Assembly (NCBI GenBank): GCA_028673005.1
Contig: CM054118.1
Coordinates: forward strand, 92,852,858-92,916,857
Direction of reading: 5' to 3'
DNA: 64,000 nucleotides
Origin: Tanypteryx hageni
Lineage: Eukaryota > Arthropoda > Insecta > Odonata > Petaluridae
The notes beneath the pieces were generated by a model. It was not told the origin of the DNA and did not search any database. It worked only from the letters and a program-made list of their open reading frames with translations. Shown here piece by piece: positions 4,563 to 55,095 of the stretch; positions within the stretch are counted from its first letter, which is position 1, and each line of letters begins with the position of its first letter. The translations under genes were made by a program, and so were the position numbers.

Positions 4563-5294
4563 TCAAACGAACTTGGATTTTTCTGTATTTATCTCCATAA
4601 ATTTTCTACCTGTTATTACTAGTCTATTTATCATTTTCTGGAGTTCCTCTTCCTTTCTTGCTAGAAGTACTTGATCATCCCTGTATTTTACTGTTCTTAT
4701 AATCCTTCCTCCAATTTTGAAATCTCCTGTGCCTTCTAACGCTTCTTGTATTAGACTTTCTCCATATATATTAGATAAGGTTGGCGATAGAGAGCAGTCC
4801 TGTTTTATTCCTCTACCGATATTTACTCCGCAGGTGACCGCATTCTCCAACCTGACCTTTACAACTTGATTCACATATAGATTCCTGATCAGTCTCCTGT
4901 CTTTCCAGTCTACACCTATATCCTTTAATATCTTCATCAACTTTACCCAATTTACTCTATCAAAGGCCTTCTGCCAGTCTACGAAACATGCGCAGATATC
5001 TTGACTGTACTCTATTGCCCTTTCTGATATGATTCTAACTATTCCTATAGCATCTCTAGTTCCTCGTTTTTTTCTGAAACCGAATTGATCTTCCCCTATT
5101 ATTTCTTCTGCCTTTTTCTCCAGCCTTTTTTTAAGAATCCTCGTTATGATCTTCGATGTGTGTGACAGAAGGCTTATCGTTCTGTAATCTTTACACTGCA
5201 TTGCCTTTGGCTTCTTCTTTAGAGGGATCATTGTTACTTCTAGGAAATCCCGAGGCCACTCTCCCGTGTCGTAAATCTTATTAATTAATTTCAT
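4563..5294 (-). pseudogene. RTE-like reverse transcriptase domain
   Basis: 243-codon open stretch with fingers and palm of a LINE reverse transcriptase: MIPLKKKPKAMQCKDYRTIS, FGFRKKRGTRDAI, CFVDWQKAFDRVNW (motif A with catalytic Asp), GIKQDCSLSPTLSNIY (family consensus GVRQGCPLSP) and VKYRDDQVLLA at the YADD box. The box reads YRDD instead of YADD. The frame ends at an in-frame stop just after INTEKSKFV; the downstream thumb is in other frames. The upstream fragment at 5318-5656 (KKAIVELKKGKATGSNGIPTE) supplies the RT1 motif. Confidence 0.8.
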
Positions 5295-5884
5295 GATCGC
5301 TTTTAGTCCTTTTGATCCTATGACTTAAGTATCTCAGTCGGTATTCCATTGCTGCCCGTGGCTTTCCCCTTCTTTAGTTCCACTATCGCTTTTTTTACTT
5401 CGCTCTCCATAATATTTGGTCCTAAGTTGTCTTCTTCAATGTTTTCTTCATCTTCCAGTTCTATTTTTGCCGCTCCTGCCTGTTTGCTGTATAATTCCTT
5501 AATGTATTCTTCCCATACCTGTGCTACATCCTTTGTTTCTGAGACTATCTTCCCATCCGTATTCATAATTCCCATACCATGAATTCCATTAGATTTCTTA
5601 TCTTCTAATTCGAGTGCTCTAGTGTACATCATATCGTACCGTCCTAACTTCTCCATTTGTTCTATTTCATCACATTTTCCTTTTATCTAATTTTCTCTAG
5701 CATCTGTTACCCTTCTCAACTCATCGTTTATATGCCTATAGTTGGCTCTACCTTCTTCAGTGTTAACGTTTTTTCATTTTCGTCTCTCATTCATTTTCTC
5801 CAGCATTTCCTTAGTGATCCATGTTTTTCTGATTTTCTTCTCTTGTTTTCAATCTCTTTATCCAAGGTTTTCTTGATACTGGTT

Positions 5885-13085: not shown

Positions 13086-13452
13086 TTTTGTGTATTTTTT
13101 CTCTTTGTTTTATCCGCATTTTGTATAATGCTTTTGCTTGTCTCTTATGCATGAGAAGCATGTTTTTTGTTGTACAGTTCTCATTGTTTATTAAATTCCT
13201 TTTTGTTTCGTGAATTTAAGTTTAACCTGATGTTATCTGTCCCATCCAATCGCTTTCAGTGGTATTAAGCTATATGTTCACAGTAAGAGTACCATACGTC
13301 CTATTTTTCCAACAACCCATATAGTTCGCACGCGACGGGTTGTGGGTAGAAGAGTCCTTTTTGGCCTGCGGGTCATCAAGAAGTCTCGAGACCACCTCCG
13401 TACAGTACTTTTGCAAGAGAGAGGAAGGGAGTCGGAAGGAGTGGGATCGTGA

Positions 13453-27484: not shown

Positions 27485-28345
27485 AATTGGTGGGTGGCAG
27501 GAGGTGCAATGCACCATAACCTACCTAAAGGTTGTCTATCGCAGGTTGAATTTTTCTATTGTGATCACGTATTGTCCTCGGAAAGGACGAGCCTAGATAA
27601 CGCTCCGTCCTACAATCGATCTCACGTATCTTATCGTCACGGTCGTTTCTACCTATATACGTTGGTGCTTCAATTATTCCTACAACCTCGTCTTTTAGAC
27701 ATTCAGATCTATATTTTTTCAGAAGCCGCAACCTTGCCTTCAATATACGATCCTCCAGTGGTACCCAGTCCAAATCCCTCAATAATGAGGTGACGCTTTC
27801 CTTATGTTCGTACTTTTGTTTTACGAATCTGGCTGCTCTGCGCTGAACTCTTTCTAATTGAATTATATGTCCCTGCTCGTACGGATCCCATATGCATGAG
27901 ACCACTTGTGGTCTAATCAGTGATAAGTAACATGTTTCGTATACTTTTTCTGTAGTGTTCCGTACTATTCTACCTATGAAAGCCTGCTTCTTGTTGGTCG
28001 CGCCTATAACTCGACGAATGTGCATGTCCCACGAAAGATCTCGACAAATGGTTACTCCTAAATATTTTACATACTCGGCTGCTTTAATATTTATTCCATC
28101 TATTTTAGACTCGAAACCTACTTCTGTGTTCTTACTTTCCCAGAACGTAACTGCGGCACATTTAGTGTAATTAATTTCAATTTGCCACTCTTTGCACCAC
28201 GTTGAAATGGCTCTTAAGTCTTCACGCAGCGACTGATGGTCCTCCTGGTTTTTTATTTCTTTATATAGAACGGTATCATAGACAAAAAGTCTAATTTTAC
28301 TACGAACTACCGAGCAGATATCATTTGTGCGTAAAATAAGCCATT
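27485..28345 (-). mobile_element. CR1-like LINE 3' fragment (reverse-transcriptase palm end, thumb, C-terminus)
   Basis: Minus-strand reading IRLFVYDTVLYKEIKNQEDH (FADDT motif, now FVYDT), AISTWCKEWQIEINYTKCAA, EYVKYLGVTICRDLSWDMHI, KKQAFIGRIVRNTTEKVYET, then LERVQRRAARFVKQKY, SVTSLLRDLDWVPLEDRILK and RLRLLKKY. This is the normal C-terminal half of a CR1/L2-type enzyme. It is 5'-truncated near 28345. The catalytic box has lost an Asp. The long thumb part (27525-28025) is still open. Confidence 0.8.
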
Positions 28346-28995
28346 TCCCATGATCGTAAGTTATTATTTAGGTATATTTATATCCACATCAGTGAAGGGC
28401 TGCATGGCATTTTGGGTTCTCCACACCATTTCCCATGCATTCTTATCTAAATAGTATTTTGTTGACCTCATGGGGTATAAGAGACCCCACGGTCTGCAAA
28501 CCTAGACTAAGTTCTTCCTTTTGCCCATAGGATGGCTCATGAATCTTTTGAATTCGATAGCTTCAACGGTGTAAAAACGTATAAAGAACATACATATATA
28601 CATACACACACACACTAAAATCTCATCTTACAATTATGTTTAAATAAGTACAGTCCGTAATGGGTCCCTATAGGTGCGAGGTGTGCTGCGCACTCCAACA
28701 GTCGAGTGCGCGCAGGGCACATTTAGCTATACAGGTTTCGAAGCAATTATTTATGTTTTAGATCATCCCCATTTACTTTCATAAATTATGTTTATGTAAA
28801 CGTTATATTTAAACTGTTATCACGCAATAATATTCTCTTGAATGTGGCCAGATACGGATTTAACTACGCCTAGAAATGATACGCGACGTGGCCAAAATAC
28901 TTTTTTTCCTGGTAAATTTTCTAAAAACTTAGGGTGCGTTTTATATTGCGAAAAAAACGGTAAATATGGCTCTATTGTATTTGTTCCCATCAATT
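28346..28995. other. Spacer
   Basis: No supported gene. A CA/TACA microsatellite lies at 28590-28615. Confidence 0.4.
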
Positions 28996-35207: not shown

Positions 35208-36635
35208 TTAAAGGTCCAGCAACTCGCGAGGCCGCCGCACCCCCCGTCCTCTCCGCGTTCCCAGGTCACTTGGATGCATGGCACTCCCACCGACGGCGTC
35301 TCCAGAATCCAGTTTGGCCTCCCCTTCAGTCTCTTCACAGCCCGACGTGGTCGGTGCATCCTTCTGGGTTGACCTGGGAGCCCTGGGATGAAGGGGTCCT
35401 GATGCCTCCGATGGCAACTCCAGGGAGTACAGTCTTTGCACCGGTCTCAGTTGAATCCCTTTCGCAGTCTTGACCCGAACCAGCCTTTTCACTCTGTCTC
35501 TCCCCAGCAACAATTCCACTACTCTGCCAAGAACCCAGCCTAACCGCCTTTTATCATTACAGCCGACTAACACTATGTCCCCAATCTGCACGCCATCCCG
35601 CTCATTTGTTTTCCTAGCAAAGGAATGCAGGAGGCCCAAATATTCCCTTTTAAAACGCAGCCGGAGACCATCTCTCACCCTTTGTAAATATCGCCATCTT
35701 CTGACAAGACACGACCTCTCCAAGTGATCAAAGTCAATTACCTCACACCCAGGAAGGCATTGGATAAAGGAGGATGGTCTCAAAGGCAGGAGTTCACCAG
35801 GTTCCTCAGAAATATATGTCAGTGGTCGATTGTTTAACACTGCCTCGCAGTCACACAACAAGGTGTTCAGCTCTTCATAACCCAGTGATGCACGACCCAG
35901 ATTTCTACCCAGGAGTCCCTTCAGCATTCCGATGAGGCGCTCCCAAAATCCTCCCCACCATGCTGCTGTTGGAGGGTTGAACTTTCATGTTATCTTCCGC
36001 AGACCGCATTCTTTCTCTATCTCAGCCCAGTCTAATTGCCTAAGAGCTTTATATGCCCAACAAAATTTGTGCCATTATCGGAGTAAATAACTGAAACTCT
36101 GCCCCTCTGCGCAATGAAACGACGCAGAGCCTGAATAAAGGCACCTGTGCAGAGAGATTGAATTAATTCTAAATGCACTGCTCTATATACCGCAACAGGT
36201 AAAAAGTACAACCCAACATTTTTCACGAGTCTTCGTAAAGAAAGGGCCTGCTAAATCTAATCCAGTGACCTGAAAAATAGACGAAGTATTTATTCTATCA
36301 GCAGGAAGGGGTGGTGCTGGCACGCGAAGAGCCTTTGCTTGATTCCTTCGACAGATCAAACATTTCCCTAGGGCCGACCTTACAGATTTCCTGCCCTTTA
36401 AAATCCAAACTCTTTCTCGAAGAATAGCCAATAATGTTTGGACACCTACGTGTTTATGCAGGATGTGCTGATACTCTATTAACTTTTTGACGATGAGTTG
36501 ATGGGAAATTATAGGACATACATACTCTTCGCTCTCTTCCCCGTATAGCAAACGTGATTTCAGTCGTATGATGCCCTCTTGGTCCACAAAGACTTGAAGC
36601 TTCTTCAAAGCCGTGTTGTCGCTGAAACTTTCCAA
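35208..36635 (-). pseudogene. BEL/Pao integrase
   Basis: Reads HKHVGVQTLLAILRERVW...KCLICRR (zinc-binding His-His-Cys-Cys), VTGLDLAGPFFTK (first catalytic Asp), VIYSDNGTNFVG (second Asp), FNPPTAAWWGGFWERLIGML (Glu region) and a C-terminal GDIVLVGCNDKRRLGWVLGR / GIQLRPVQRLYSLEL block like the DUF5641 tail of this family. The parts are in different frames (36183-36635, 36032-36226, 35208-35927). The enzyme would insert element cDNA. Confidence 0.85.
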
Positions 36636-36852
36636 TTGTACACAGCGGTAGAGCGGTAGAGCACCTTTTCTGCCCGTAAGAACTCTTCTCCAGTGATGTA
36701 GTGTCCACCCTTTATTTTCGAGGCAAAACGCAACACCCAGGCTAAGGTTCTAACCATCTTCGGGTATTTTGACAATCTTTGACTCAATTGTCCGATGATC
36801 GTCTAATGAAGGGAGTCTGCCGCCACGACGACAGTCTTCCTCTTTTCTTCTT

Positions 36853-37503
36853 CTACTTCCTCAGCAGGGGGTAACAGTTTTGTCGTTGGCCACTCACTGG
36901 AAGGTTGTCCCACCATCGGGAAAGGAGAAGTTGACGAGGTGTACAACCCCATGAGGGCAGATCTACTGGGTTAGCAACTCCCTGAACATGCCTCCATTGT
37001 TCCGGTAGGCTAAACTGCCGAATTTCTCTTACTCTGTTTTCCACAAACACCGACCAACATCCTTGTTTTGAAATCCACGCCAACGTCACTGTGGAGTCCG
37101 ACCAATAGAAAAGAGGAATGTCATCCCTGTTTAAACCCCTTTTGACTTGCAAGGAATGACGCATTCCTATTAGGGCTGCCATAAGTTCTAACCTAAGAAG
37201 GGTGAGGTTCTTCGCTGGTGCCACTCTCGATTTCGCTTGAACCAAACTGAGGTGTTCCTTTCCCTCTCGTTCCGTCAGCAGAAATATACAGCAAGCATAC
37301 GCCAACTTACTTGCTTCGCAAAAAACATGTAAGGTAGTACTTTGGTCGACATCAAGCAGGCAAGGTATCTTGCAGTCAGTCAGAACTCCAAGTTGACTAG
37401 CCCATGTATCGAATTCTTTCCTGATGGCTTTAGGTAATGTCTCATCCCACCCTAGTTTCAACTGCCAAGTACGTTGAAGTAACAATTTTGGAATGAGTCC
37501 CAC
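36853..37503 (-). pseudogene. BEL/Pao RNase H and connection domain
   Basis: 216-codon open stretch: VGLIPKLLLQRTWQLKLGWD, STTLHVFCEASKLAYACCIF (the RNase H DAS block, here EAS), LLRLELMAALIGMR (catalytic Glu), FYWSDSTVTLAWI (catalytic Asp). The next fragment (36454-36787) follows in other frames. The Asp-to-Glu change in the first motif suggests loss of activity. Confidence 0.8.
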
Positions 37504-37622
37504 CGGAACAGTGAATCCAATCAGGTCGAAAATTTTCTAAGCACACGATAGCAACGTTCTCTTGGTTAATGAACAGATAGTCTGGCTTAACTTTCCGACG
37601 TTGCATCCCAGTTCATCTGTAG

Positions 37623-52467: not shown

Positions 52468-52502
52468 GAGCCGTCGAAAAAATGTTTCCAATGGCGCCGG
52501 CG
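52468..52502. repeat. Left arm of an inverted repeat split by Transib
   Basis: GTCGAAAAAATGTTTCCA with GGCGCCGGCG. Its diverged inverse (TGGAAACTATTTTCGAC) is at 55118-55134, just beyond the right end of the Transib element. Confidence 0.55.
52498..52502. repeat. Transib target-site duplication, left
   Basis: CGGCG, identical to 55091-55095. Transib elements make 5-bp, GC-rich duplications. Confidence 0.85.
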
Positions 52503-52541
52503 CACAGTGGTCAATATCGTGAATCTAGCTGGACAAAATTC
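52503..52541 (+). repeat. Left terminal inverted repeat, 23-RSS-like
   Basis: Heptamer CACAGTG 52503-52509, spacer 52510-52532 (23 bp), nonamer-like ACAAAATTC 52533-52541 (seven of nine match the RSS consensus). The heptamer is identical to the vertebrate RSS consensus. Confidence 0.85.
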
Positions 52542-52807
52542 CAAATATAGTTTTACTCAGGATATAATGTATAAATAAAATGTAGTCCTGAGCAAAATAC
52601 TAAGAAATAACGCATTAACCCAAAATTGACCAACTTCCGAGCTTGGTATGAGACATTTCAATGATTTAAGTGCTACACATTTGTATGAAATATTGGGCGA
52701 ATCTTTTAAAATTAAAACAAAAAACATTATGGACACAAATCGCGTTTCCGCAGCACCCAAGAGGTAGAGATTTCGGCGCGTTTTTTATAGTGGTTCCCCG
52801 CGCCGCG

Positions 52808-52853
52808 TGGATTAGGCCTAAGCTACGGCGCGCCGTAGCGTAGGACTAATCCA
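52808..52853. repeat. 46-bp GC-centred palindrome inside Transib
   Basis: Two 23-nt arms without a loop, TGGATTAGGCCTAAGC... against its inverse, matching at 21 of 23 positions, with centre GGCG/CGCC at 52830/52831. Confidence 0.9.
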
Positions 52854-53043
52854 TTTTTCAGAGTGCTTTAATAAAATCAAATCTTATTTAAATACATTTT
52901 ATCGGTTATAATTTGAACACCTACTCGTGTTCACTTTCTGACTCAGAATCACAATAAAAGCTCAATAAAATTTCTGAATTTTCTGTCTGAGAAGTGCCCG
53001 ACATAGAGGGCTGTTCAAGTAAGCTAAATAATTCTGAAGTCAG

Positions 53044-54481
53044 TTAGTCCTTTTTTCGTTGTGAACGTGTCCTGTAATGAGCAATGACGGAATCTGATGT
53101 AATGAGTAACATATGCAGCAAGTCCACCATGGTACTTGTTCTTGAGAACTTGCGCGTGTGACTCTCTCTAAATATTTTGCAGTCTTTGTGTCGGGCTTCT
53201 TGTGCATCTTCTGACAGTTGACCAATAGGCAGCAAACAAGATTTAATTATAGCCGGTCCACGTCTGGCAGAGTTTCCATCATTTGTTGTGCCACATCCGG
53301 GCTTAGGAATGTCCACCAATAAACCCATTTCAGAGCGAAATTTTCTTTGTACTTCTTCTTTCCTTTCACTTGCTTTTTTCTTATCTTCTGAATCTCTTAT
53401 TTGCCATTTCTTTAGATTACGTCGGTAGGCGATATGAAGAAGGCACTCGAAACACCGAATCCAGGCATGTAGTACTGATATTCCAAAGTCGTGCGTAGTA
53501 ATATCATGCACATTCATTGAGTGACTTAAAATGATATTGTTCATTTCTTTGGGGCTATCTCCACACATGCAACATTTCTGCGCAGACACTTCTGTGATAG
53601 CACTACATACTTTTCTATCAACCATGGTTCAAGCTTTTGTTTCACCAATATATCTTTTCCTCTCATTTCAACTTTTGTGGGAGACGAGTTATTTGTTCTT
53701 CAAGCTTCTTTATTTCTATTTTGCATAATTCTGCCGTCTCCTTTTCAAATAATAATTTAATAGGCCTACAATACCTGGTCGAGGAAGGATGTTTATTTCG
53801 CCACACAATAGTTTTTTCATTATCAGAATCTACTGAAAGTTGCAGTGGGACTATGGACACAACAAACAAATCAGAATCCTTCTCCACTAAATTTCTGTTT
53901 GTATGTGCTTTGGCCAGAGCTCCTATTGCGCCTCCATTTGAAAATCATCATAAATGCTGTTTCACATCCAATGTCTACTTCCGCTATCGCATCAGATTGA
54001 ACAGATAGCACTCTTTGAATAGTATGATCAAGAAGGGCCTGTAATTTTATTTCTGCAGATTTCTCGGTAATTGTGATAGACTCTTCTATAGGATAGCACT
54101 TTACCTTTGACTCGATAATGAAGTAGTAGGCTGGGTATATATCTGAATTTTTTGCCTTTGCTTGCGATCGGATCAAGGTGTACTGATTTTAACCATTTTT
54201 CCATGCTTCATCAGATGTATATGGTATTGGCGCCTGAGTGAGAGAACGAAATGCCTTTATTCCTGTAGCACAGTTGATGTTTCACTTTCAACTATTTTCG
54301 GGAAAGTTATATTTCCACCCAGCAACTTGTCATTCTTCTTTAAAAATCCTTTTAGTGTTCTGTGGCTTTCGGTCAATTTTGAAGAGATTTGTAAGCAAAA
54401 GTTATGAACCCTTTCCCTTAGCTTCTCTTTCACACTTTCTGAACCGTTTTCTTGTCCCAAATCATTCAATACATATGCCAA
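53044..54481 (-). pseudogene. RAG1-like (Transib) transposase, broken
   Basis: Read downstream on the minus strand: RERVHNFCLQISSKL and GFLKKNDKLLGGNITF (54257-54481); ITEKSAEIKLQALLDHTIQR and KWRRNRSSGQSTYKQKF (53871-54176); after a frameshift near 53885, IVWRNKHPSSTRYCRPIKLL (53663-53887); then CCMCGDSPKEM, LHAWIRCFECLLHIAYR, ERKEEVQRKFRSEMGLLVDI and TNDGNSARR, joined directly to LLPIGQLSEDAQEARHKDCK and MVDLLHMLLITSD (53044-53625). These align in order with RAG1 core: the TCDGMGD block, the MNGNFARKL region and the E962 block WASEGNES. Family members usually read GCDG where this copy has RRNR. A stretch is missing between NSARR and LLPIG. Confidence 0.7.
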
Positions 54482-55051
54482 AACACTTAAATATAGTTTA
54501 TACTTTTATCGGGTTTCTTCCGCCAAACCTCAAAAAACGCTCGGCGAGAAATGGTTCCGGCTAAAAAAATGAATAACGTGTGATTCGGCAACTTTCGGCA
54601 GCTGATTTCAGCACTTAATCTTCGATTCATCTTAACCCATAAAGCAAAGGAAATGCTCAACATTGGTCAACATTTTTATAGGTCTTTAGAAAGTTTATAT
54701 TTGAAAATAATTTATGTAAACTTCGTTGTCCATATTCCACGCACAGTAAATATATATTAAAGAAATGTATTTCGATGATTTATAGTACGTTATACCATAC
54801 ATACCTTCTGAGGTGATATCTATAAAGGAGAACAAAATCGGCTTGCTAACACTCACAAAATCGCACTTTTACTTCAAAGGAGGAAAAGCGACCGAGAGCG
54901 GCTCTGAGGGCCGCATGCGATTGAGGGACAATTATGACGGTCTCGGTTCCATTAGCCTTTGTTAAATTGGTAAATTGTTTCATTTTTGATTTAAACGAGA
55001 ATTTCTTTGTAACTTGTGATAGAAGGTATGTTGTATGACACTTACTAAAAT

Positions 55052-55090
55052 GGATTTTGTCCAGCTAGGTTCACGATATTGACCTCTGTG
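55052..55090 (-). repeat. Right terminal inverted repeat, 23-RSS-like
   Basis: On the minus strand: heptamer CACAGAG (55084-55090), 23-bp spacer (55061-55083), then ACAAAATCC (55052-55060), eight of nine matching the RSS nonamer consensus. Confidence 0.85.
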
Positions 55091-55095
55091 CGGCG
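55091..55095. repeat. Transib target-site duplication, right
   Basis: CGGCG, identical to the left flank. Confidence 0.85.

Follow-up and report, generated by a model that had tools for sequence, protein, structure and literature searches.

The Transib transposons that Kapitonov and Jurka described in PLoS Biol in 2005 reportedly combine ends resembling the recombination signal sequences (RSSs) of V(D)J recombination with a 5-bp target-site duplication and a RAG1-like transposase. That Transib ends resemble the RSS is already in print in passages of PMC8355894 and PMC9435367, the former of which cites the Kapitonov and Jurka elements as having symmetric spacers of 20 to 22 bp, with a few arranged as 12/23. 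In V(D)J recombination, the rule pairs a 12-bp with a 23-bp spacer (PMC8289069), and RAG1 recognizes the nonamer through an N-terminal domain composed of a GGRPR hook and three helices (PMC6941560). Here, we analyzed a 64-kb stretch of the genome of the dragonfly Tanypteryx hageni (contig CM054118.1, positions 92,852,858 to 92,916,857; hereafter, the window), in which positions 52503..55090 hold an element of 2588 bp. This element is very probably a broken cut-and-paste transposon of the Transib superfamily, flanked by a 5-bp duplication, the ends of which likely served a RAG1-like transposase as the sites that it bound and cut. We base this reading on what can be directly observed, namely, the ends, their spacing, the duplications, the family copies with the same boundaries, the kinship of the transposase and the damage to its gene. 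A COX1 frame on another contig of the assembly (L055) shows 97% identity to Aeshna mixta, with Odonata as the next named matches, which marks the host as a dragonfly. The literature retrieved by pairing Transib with dragonfly dealt with partitiviruses only.

The element, recognized by its inverted repeat, family copies and translated matches, carries its coding remains on the minus strand. Both flanks have CGGCG directly adjoining the element (52498..52502 and 55091..55095), as a preliminary description of this locus had stated, and the terminal inverted repeat extends over 43 nucleotides at 93%, with the edge of the duplication counted in. The 1.68-Gb dragonfly genome contains a family of such copies, of which 15 loci were retrieved besides the window copy. 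With the latter counted, element base 1 is where 11 of the 13 left ends begin, the two others starting at bases 2 and 5. Of the 11 right ends, 10 finish at base 2588 and one is cut at 2545; since these family ends agree, the boundaries 52503 and 55090 proposed in the preliminary description are right. The left-end counts take as two the loci L012 and L013, which have an identical left flank on the same strand of contig C2, about 76 kb apart, and are therefore likely a single duplicated insertion. Copy boundaries were set by BLAST, independently of the duplication; an exact 5-bp duplication was present in five of the seven two-ended copies (CGGCG, CAGCG, CGACG, CATTG and CGATG), one further copy has a duplication matching at 4 of 5 bases (TGACG/CGACG) and one (L015) has no 5-bp duplication. 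The best structurally solved relative of a frame of the window copy is HzTransib (1.5e-42), which upholds the earlier Transib assignment. The locus combines terminal inverted repeats that start with CAC and contain an RSS-like heptamer, a transposase related to HzTransib, a 5-bp target-site duplication and a single gene without RAG2, matches between the ends being to transposase alone.

Each end contains the heptamer, 23-bp spacer and nonamer of a V(D)J 23-RSS. On the left, the heptamer CACAGTG (52503..52509, plus strand; 7/7 of the RSS heptamer) is followed by a spacer (52510..52532), which near its end carries ATCTA..GG, common to several sister families, and by the nonamer-like box ACAAAATTC (52533..52541; 7/9). 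On the right, read on the minus strand, come the heptamer CACAGAG (55084..55090; 6/7), the spacer (55061..55083) and the box ACAAAATCC (55052..55060; 8/9). The motifs reported earlier, CACAGTG-23-ACAAAATTC and CACAGAG-23-ACAAAATCC, proved correct letter by letter, including the canonical heptamer at one end and the 8/9 nonamer at the other. Nonamer matches of this quality are rare in the window, where 0.24% of 9-mers match the RSS nonamer at 7/9 or better and 0.02% at 8/9 or better. When near-canonical RSSs were defined by a heptamer of at least 6/7 starting with CAC, a nonamer of at least 7/9 and a spacer of 12 or 23 bp, both strands of the 64 kb yielded three sites, i.e., the two element ends and one at 13279. 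The claimed V(D)J 23-RSS layout holds for each end but not for the pair, since 23/23 set against the 12/23 rule makes the pair unlike a V(D)J substrate.

The RSS-like layout is not special to the window copy. By the sequence of their ends, at least seven Transib families can be distinguished in this one dragonfly genome (A, the window family, and B, C, F, K, M and N). The ends of B (CACAGTGGGTTAAATTGCAAATCTAGGTGGACAAAATGTC; L031, L032, L035, L036, L037, L041, L043 and L044), C (CACAGAGGTAGATTTACCCGATCTACGCGGTCAAAAACAA; L034) and K (CACAGTGGGGTATTTTCCTTAAAAGCTGGCCAAAATGTGA and CACAGTGGGGCTTTTTCAAAAAAACATGGCCAAAATCCAA; L046, L048, L049 and L051) were found by inverted repeat and duplication, with no nonamer required and with at most one duplication mismatch allowed for B and C and at most two for K; the remaining loci in this selection gave only weak, chance-like pairs. 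L035 and L036 are likely a single duplicated insertion, as both their duplication and their ends are identical. In a scan that required the motif, 24 of 30 loci yielded an end with a spacer of 22 or 23 bp, which added families F, M and N; no ends were found in the other six (L026, L027, L028, L042, L050 and L054). The spacer giving the best RSS nonamer is 23 bp in 11 of 13 ends from the seven families and 22 bp, tied with other spacings, in both K ends, and the end pairs are 23/23 in the window family, B and C and 22/22 in K; "exactly 23" is therefore no fixed rule.

Across the genome, the pattern CACAGTG N(8-32) GGNCAAAAT has 2197 matches, compared with 25 for the pattern read backward. Spacers were tallied in the first 100 matches listed, which follow the contig order and cover C1, C2 and the start of C3, and among these, 23 bp occurs 40 times, 22 bp 25 times, 18 other lengths one to four times each and five lengths not at all. 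The 100 listed matches contain 73 different spacer sequences, 22 of them with a length of 23 bp and 16 with a length of 22 bp, and by likeness these fall into 12 and 7 groups, respectively; at C2:182.2-182.9 Mb, eight of the 23-bp matches come from copies that are nearly identical. A stricter search, with ATCTA required in the spacer, gave 90 genome matches (control, 0), of which 72 have a spacer of 23 bp, 13 of 27 bp, three of 21 bp (on C6), one of 22 bp and one of 20 bp, the 13 at 27 bp being a separate repeat (CACAGAGCAGG...). The signal is bipartite, with a distance mostly of 22 to 23 bp, and a 12-bp distance is not visibly used. Hence, of the earlier emphasis on the RSS-like 23-bp layout as notable, the layout itself is real, but it is common to other families, at 23 or 22 bp, and the likeness had been published.

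The alternative that survives best is that the nonamer likeness is convergence or chance, produced by A-rich inner Transib ends set against the A run of the RSS nonamer, and this we regard as doubtful but far from negligible. It draws on the facts that (i) nonamer matches are just 5 to 8 of 9, and the final three bases vary; (ii) in several families the conserved block exceeds the nonamer and starts inside the spacer (ATCTA..GG.CAAAA), a block that families A, B and C show independently of the 90-match search, in which the ATCTA pattern was imposed; and (iii) the nonamer scores of the K ends are 5 and 7, and other spacings tie with them. On the other hand, the best nonamer lies at 23 bp in 11 of the 13 ends, with only the tied K ends at 22, and spacers of 23 and 22 bp have 40 and 25 occurrences among the 100 listed, against a mean of 1.5 per other length from 10 to 34. 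Six of the ends (B, C and K) were found without requiring a nonamer, whereas five (F, M and N) were found by a CAAAA-requiring motif and family A was chosen beforehand for its nonamer. In the proteins of these families, moreover, the core is RAG1-like and a GRP hook is mostly present. We infer that the resemblance between Transib ends and the RSS is likely inherited.

Under the reading that we prefer, a RAG1-like transposase acting on RSS-like ends, a transposase dimer would grip the distal nonamer-like box via an N-terminal domain similar to the nonamer-binding domain (NBD), consisting of the GRP hook and three helices; the DDE catalytic core would cut the flank at the heptamer CAC by nicking and hairpin formation; and the freed element would insert with a 5-bp stagger. 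The window copy may have moved, at most, in trans by a relative. The distal box is thus presumed to be read by the NBD-like domain, and its retention for a promoter or a host binding protein instead of the transposase is improbable: a YY1-like factor acting in ProtoRAG ends offers a precedent (PMC7481187), but the box stands at both ends, at a near-fixed distance from the heptamer, in families with differing spacers.

Two further alternatives have very little probability. That the element is RAG-like (RAGL/ProtoRAG) or a domesticated RAG1-like gene, and not a Transib, is extremely improbable: the family profile does match RAG1 and ProtoRAG BbRAG1L, in line with the RAG1 kinship noted earlier, but its match to HzTransib is far stronger (4e-186 against 2.6e-12), many copies have transposon ends and duplications, no RAG2-like gene lies next to the RAG1-like gene between the element ends, the two-ended L011, L012 and L015 (2.9-3.1 kb) have about half a kilobase on either side of the transposase gene, which is too little for RAG2, and the RAG2 Pfam model (PF03089) found nothing in the genome, a weak point, given that its controls were likewise silent and the absence of RAG2 cannot be argued from it. 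An asymmetric 12/23 pair, of the type found in V(D)J recombination and a few Transibs (PMC8355894), has an equally negligible chance even with asymmetric Transib ends in print (PMC8355894, PMC9435367), given that the best spacing is 23 at both window-element ends, the nonamer score at 12 bp is 3/9 for both and a 12-bp spacer occurs once among the 100 listed, at background level.

According to a passage of PMC9435367, Transibs of subgroups I and II have an NBD equivalent that contains GRP. Among 107 Transib proteins of at least 600 amino acids, drawn from 120 listed for a dragonfly query, 99 have GRP followed by F or L within residues 1 to 220, and the motif is absent further along in all of them. 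In the structural model, three helices follow GRP (residues 120-133, 136-149 and 153-164), and in one VIA row, RAG1 chain 6dbx_A aligns to model residues 109-654, starting from the G of GRP, with a root mean square deviation (rmsd) of 7.9 Å. Of 31 rows from dragonfly loci, 12 have GRP, 10 have an altered form (GRR, GSP, CRP, etc.) and nine do not span the place.

The HzTransib clade differs in this respect. The published deduced HzTransib protein has 489 amino acids (PMC1852546), and its alignment starts at about residue 178 of the 705-amino-acid relative P0241; the four nearest relatives listed for the HzTransib query have 699 to 707 amino acids and 81 to 94% identity. The solved HzTransib chain aligns from profile position 178 and starts at model residue 183, which leaves the NBD-like part outside it. 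By these alignments, about 180 N-terminal residues of its relatives are missing from the known HzTransib protein. In long relatives of HzTransib, GRP is replaced, for example, by KRSRKPF, and it is found in one of 93 proteins of at least 640 amino acids. A FastTree phylogeny of 193 proteins has one root branch with 92 members and no GRP (0/92; support, 1.0) and another with 101 members, 93 of them with GRP (support, 0.69), and the Fitch count of GRP changes is 8; these proteins are the top matches of two queries, unevenly sampled, and the midpoint root makes the rooting weak. HzTransib ends are described in a passage of PMC8289069 as having little or no nonamer, so that box with hook versus no box without hook is one comparison, with the HzTransib side taken from the literature. 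Viral contigs contained no Transib relative (34 pattern stretches, none confirmed), and hence no HzTransib-clade ends could be read there; P0241 gave 67 matches in the dragonfly genome, at 30 to 53% identity (63 of 1656 candidates scored). Tentatively, there may be two kinds of Transib, one with a bipartite signal and a GRP-type NBD, from which V(D)J recombination would have inherited its signal whole, with nonamer and NBD, and the HzTransib kind, in which loss of the hook would have entailed loss of the nonamer; the Transib that serves as structural model for the origin of RAG would then be of this second kind, and it was solved without its N-terminal domain. We consider this scheme possible and somewhat unlikely as it stands.

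The gene in the window copy is damaged. It occupies 53002..54505 on the minus strand, as judged from translated matches to the Transib transposase P0001 (54257-53877, 53878-53681, 53628-53260 and 53259-53002) and an N-terminal remnant in frame at 54260-54505. By alignment with HzTransib, the catalytic residues of which are D126, D225 and E436 (PMC6941560), the first catalytic Asp codon (53925..53927) is AAT, encoding Asn, while the second Asp codon (GAT, 53617..53619) and the Glu codon (GAA, 53197..53199) are kept, all on the minus strand. Two segments are missing. At the deletion point 54258..54259, five of eight relatives have a segment of 200 to 214 bp that carries the GRP/NBD-like motif, two have it in part and L017 lacks it; at 53260..53261, seven of eight relatives have a segment of 187 to 210 bp, corresponding to about residues 328-398 of the HzTransib chain. 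In the alignment with relatives, these appear as gaps of 215 columns after 54259 and 212 columns after 53261, next to two gaps of 17 columns each in the window copy, and the GRP motif lies in the first missing stretch, as can be seen in L015 (AGRPQKIFQECSSRTKNRKLKCLLES). Identity of the window copy is 88 to 93% to seven relatives and 72% to L018, and none of ten copies translated has a single open frame over the transposase gene. With Asn in place of the first catalytic Asp and with two losses of about 210 bp each, the window copy cannot make a working transposase. The lost DDE residue bears on the working state and not on descent; the window copy is a dead member of the superfamily. Of the RAG1-like coding remains described previously, the kinship was borne out, but they belong to a broken copy that has also lost its NBD-like part.

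Several observations weigh against the preferred reading of RSS-like ends served by a RAG1-like transposase: (i) the mechanism is predicted from kinship with HzTransib and RAG1, binding and cutting included; (ii) the two ends of one element are homologous and so do not amount to two independent RSS matches, and a 23/23 pair would break the 12/23 rule; (iii) the K spacer is 22 and not 23 bp, and 18 of the 90 ATCTA-pattern matches are off 23 bp; (iv) the RAG1 Pfam model reached 0.098 on one frame of the window copy, and genome-wide (PF12940) it found nothing at 1e-3, with controls that were equally silent, so that this is no evidence of absence; (v) VIA support for the NBD is a single row, this part being barely tested, Foldseek gave longer alignments to NBD-bearing RAG1 chains at high rmsd and the NBD sequence match to RAG1 is weak (2.6 bits; i-Evalue, 300); (vi) GRP is altered in 10 of the 22 dragonfly rows that span it; and (vii) invertebrate RAGL complexes are described in a passage of PMC7204232 as relying mainly on the terminal 15 to 17 bp.

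A number of additional features were noted. The element contains a 46-bp near-perfect palindrome (52808-52853; 23-nucleotide arms, 91%), the left arm of which, judged from BLAST pieces, is shortened in L011 and L018 and missing in L012 and L013. Pfam yielded no usable match on the separate frames, and a TF_AP-2 match (0.0034) was rejected as being under its cut-off. The family copy L014 (C1:165749863-165754910) terminates at a 342-amino-acid open frame that is retroelement-like and looks RNase H-like by eye only. Other repeats in the window, all on the minus strand, are Pao-type retroelement remains at 35214-37536 (Peptidase_A17, 3.7e-33; DUF5641, 3e-15) and reverse-transcriptase remains at 4569-5324 (RVT_1, 3.7e-29) and 27531-28367 (RVT_1, 1.3e-5, under the curated cut-off). 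Elsewhere in the genome, Transib ends at C2:182.2-182.9 Mb repeat in steps of about 59 to 63 kb or multiples thereof, and transposase fragments at C9:161.5-162.7 Mb repeat about every 221 kb, as though very long units had been amplified in tandem. If the listing is complete in contig order, C1 and C2, which make up 31% of the genome, hold 99 of the 2197 RSS-like matches, so another contig must hold a dense set. The family K copy L046 (C5:1807891-1809864) has one stop in 714 amino acids of transposase frame; with few stops in its copies, K was likely mobile at a later time than the window family.

The window copy, then, is an ordinary Transib that is broken but has RSS-like ends of unusual clarity, and while such likeness is broadly known for Transib, here it is seen in several sister families at once. 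This qualifies the proposal that the arthropod family is a good model of the ancestral signal: in this role, the families are useful as a set, but a single broken copy is not. With differing spacers and a kept heptamer, distance and CAAAA box, these seven or more families represent a natural mutagenesis of an RSS-like signal, and they add to the case that the heptamer-nonamer signal is older than vertebrates. Comparing GRP-bearing with GRP-less clades would be a direct and cheap test of whether nonamer and nonamer-binding domain were inherited jointly.

In comparison with known systems, HzTransib (Protein Data Bank entries 6pqn, 6pqr, 6pqx and 6pqy) belongs to the GRP-less clade (0/92), unlike the dragonfly-type clade (93/101 with GRP). 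Set against the families of Kapitonov and Jurka, the dragonfly pairs are 23/23 (window family, B and C) and 22/22 (K); symmetric ends also occur in subgroup II Transibs, according to a passage of PMC9435367. ProtoRAG/RAGL elements and the dragonfly Transib are alike in their CAC ends, 5-bp duplication and RAG1-like core, whereas the ProtoRAG distal element GCCATCTTG, with its 27/31-bp spacing (PMC8289069), and RAG2L were not seen in the dragonfly element, and the dragonfly families look different from RAGL complexes that rely on the terminal 15 to 17 bp. Relative to the vertebrate 23-RSS, the dragonfly element has no 12-bp partner, its ends bound a mobile element, the final nonamer bases differ and the conserved block reaches into the spacer in some families. 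What the two have in common is the heptamer (7/7 and 6/7), the 23-bp spacer, the nonamer (7/9 and 8/9) and a RAG1-like catalytic core.
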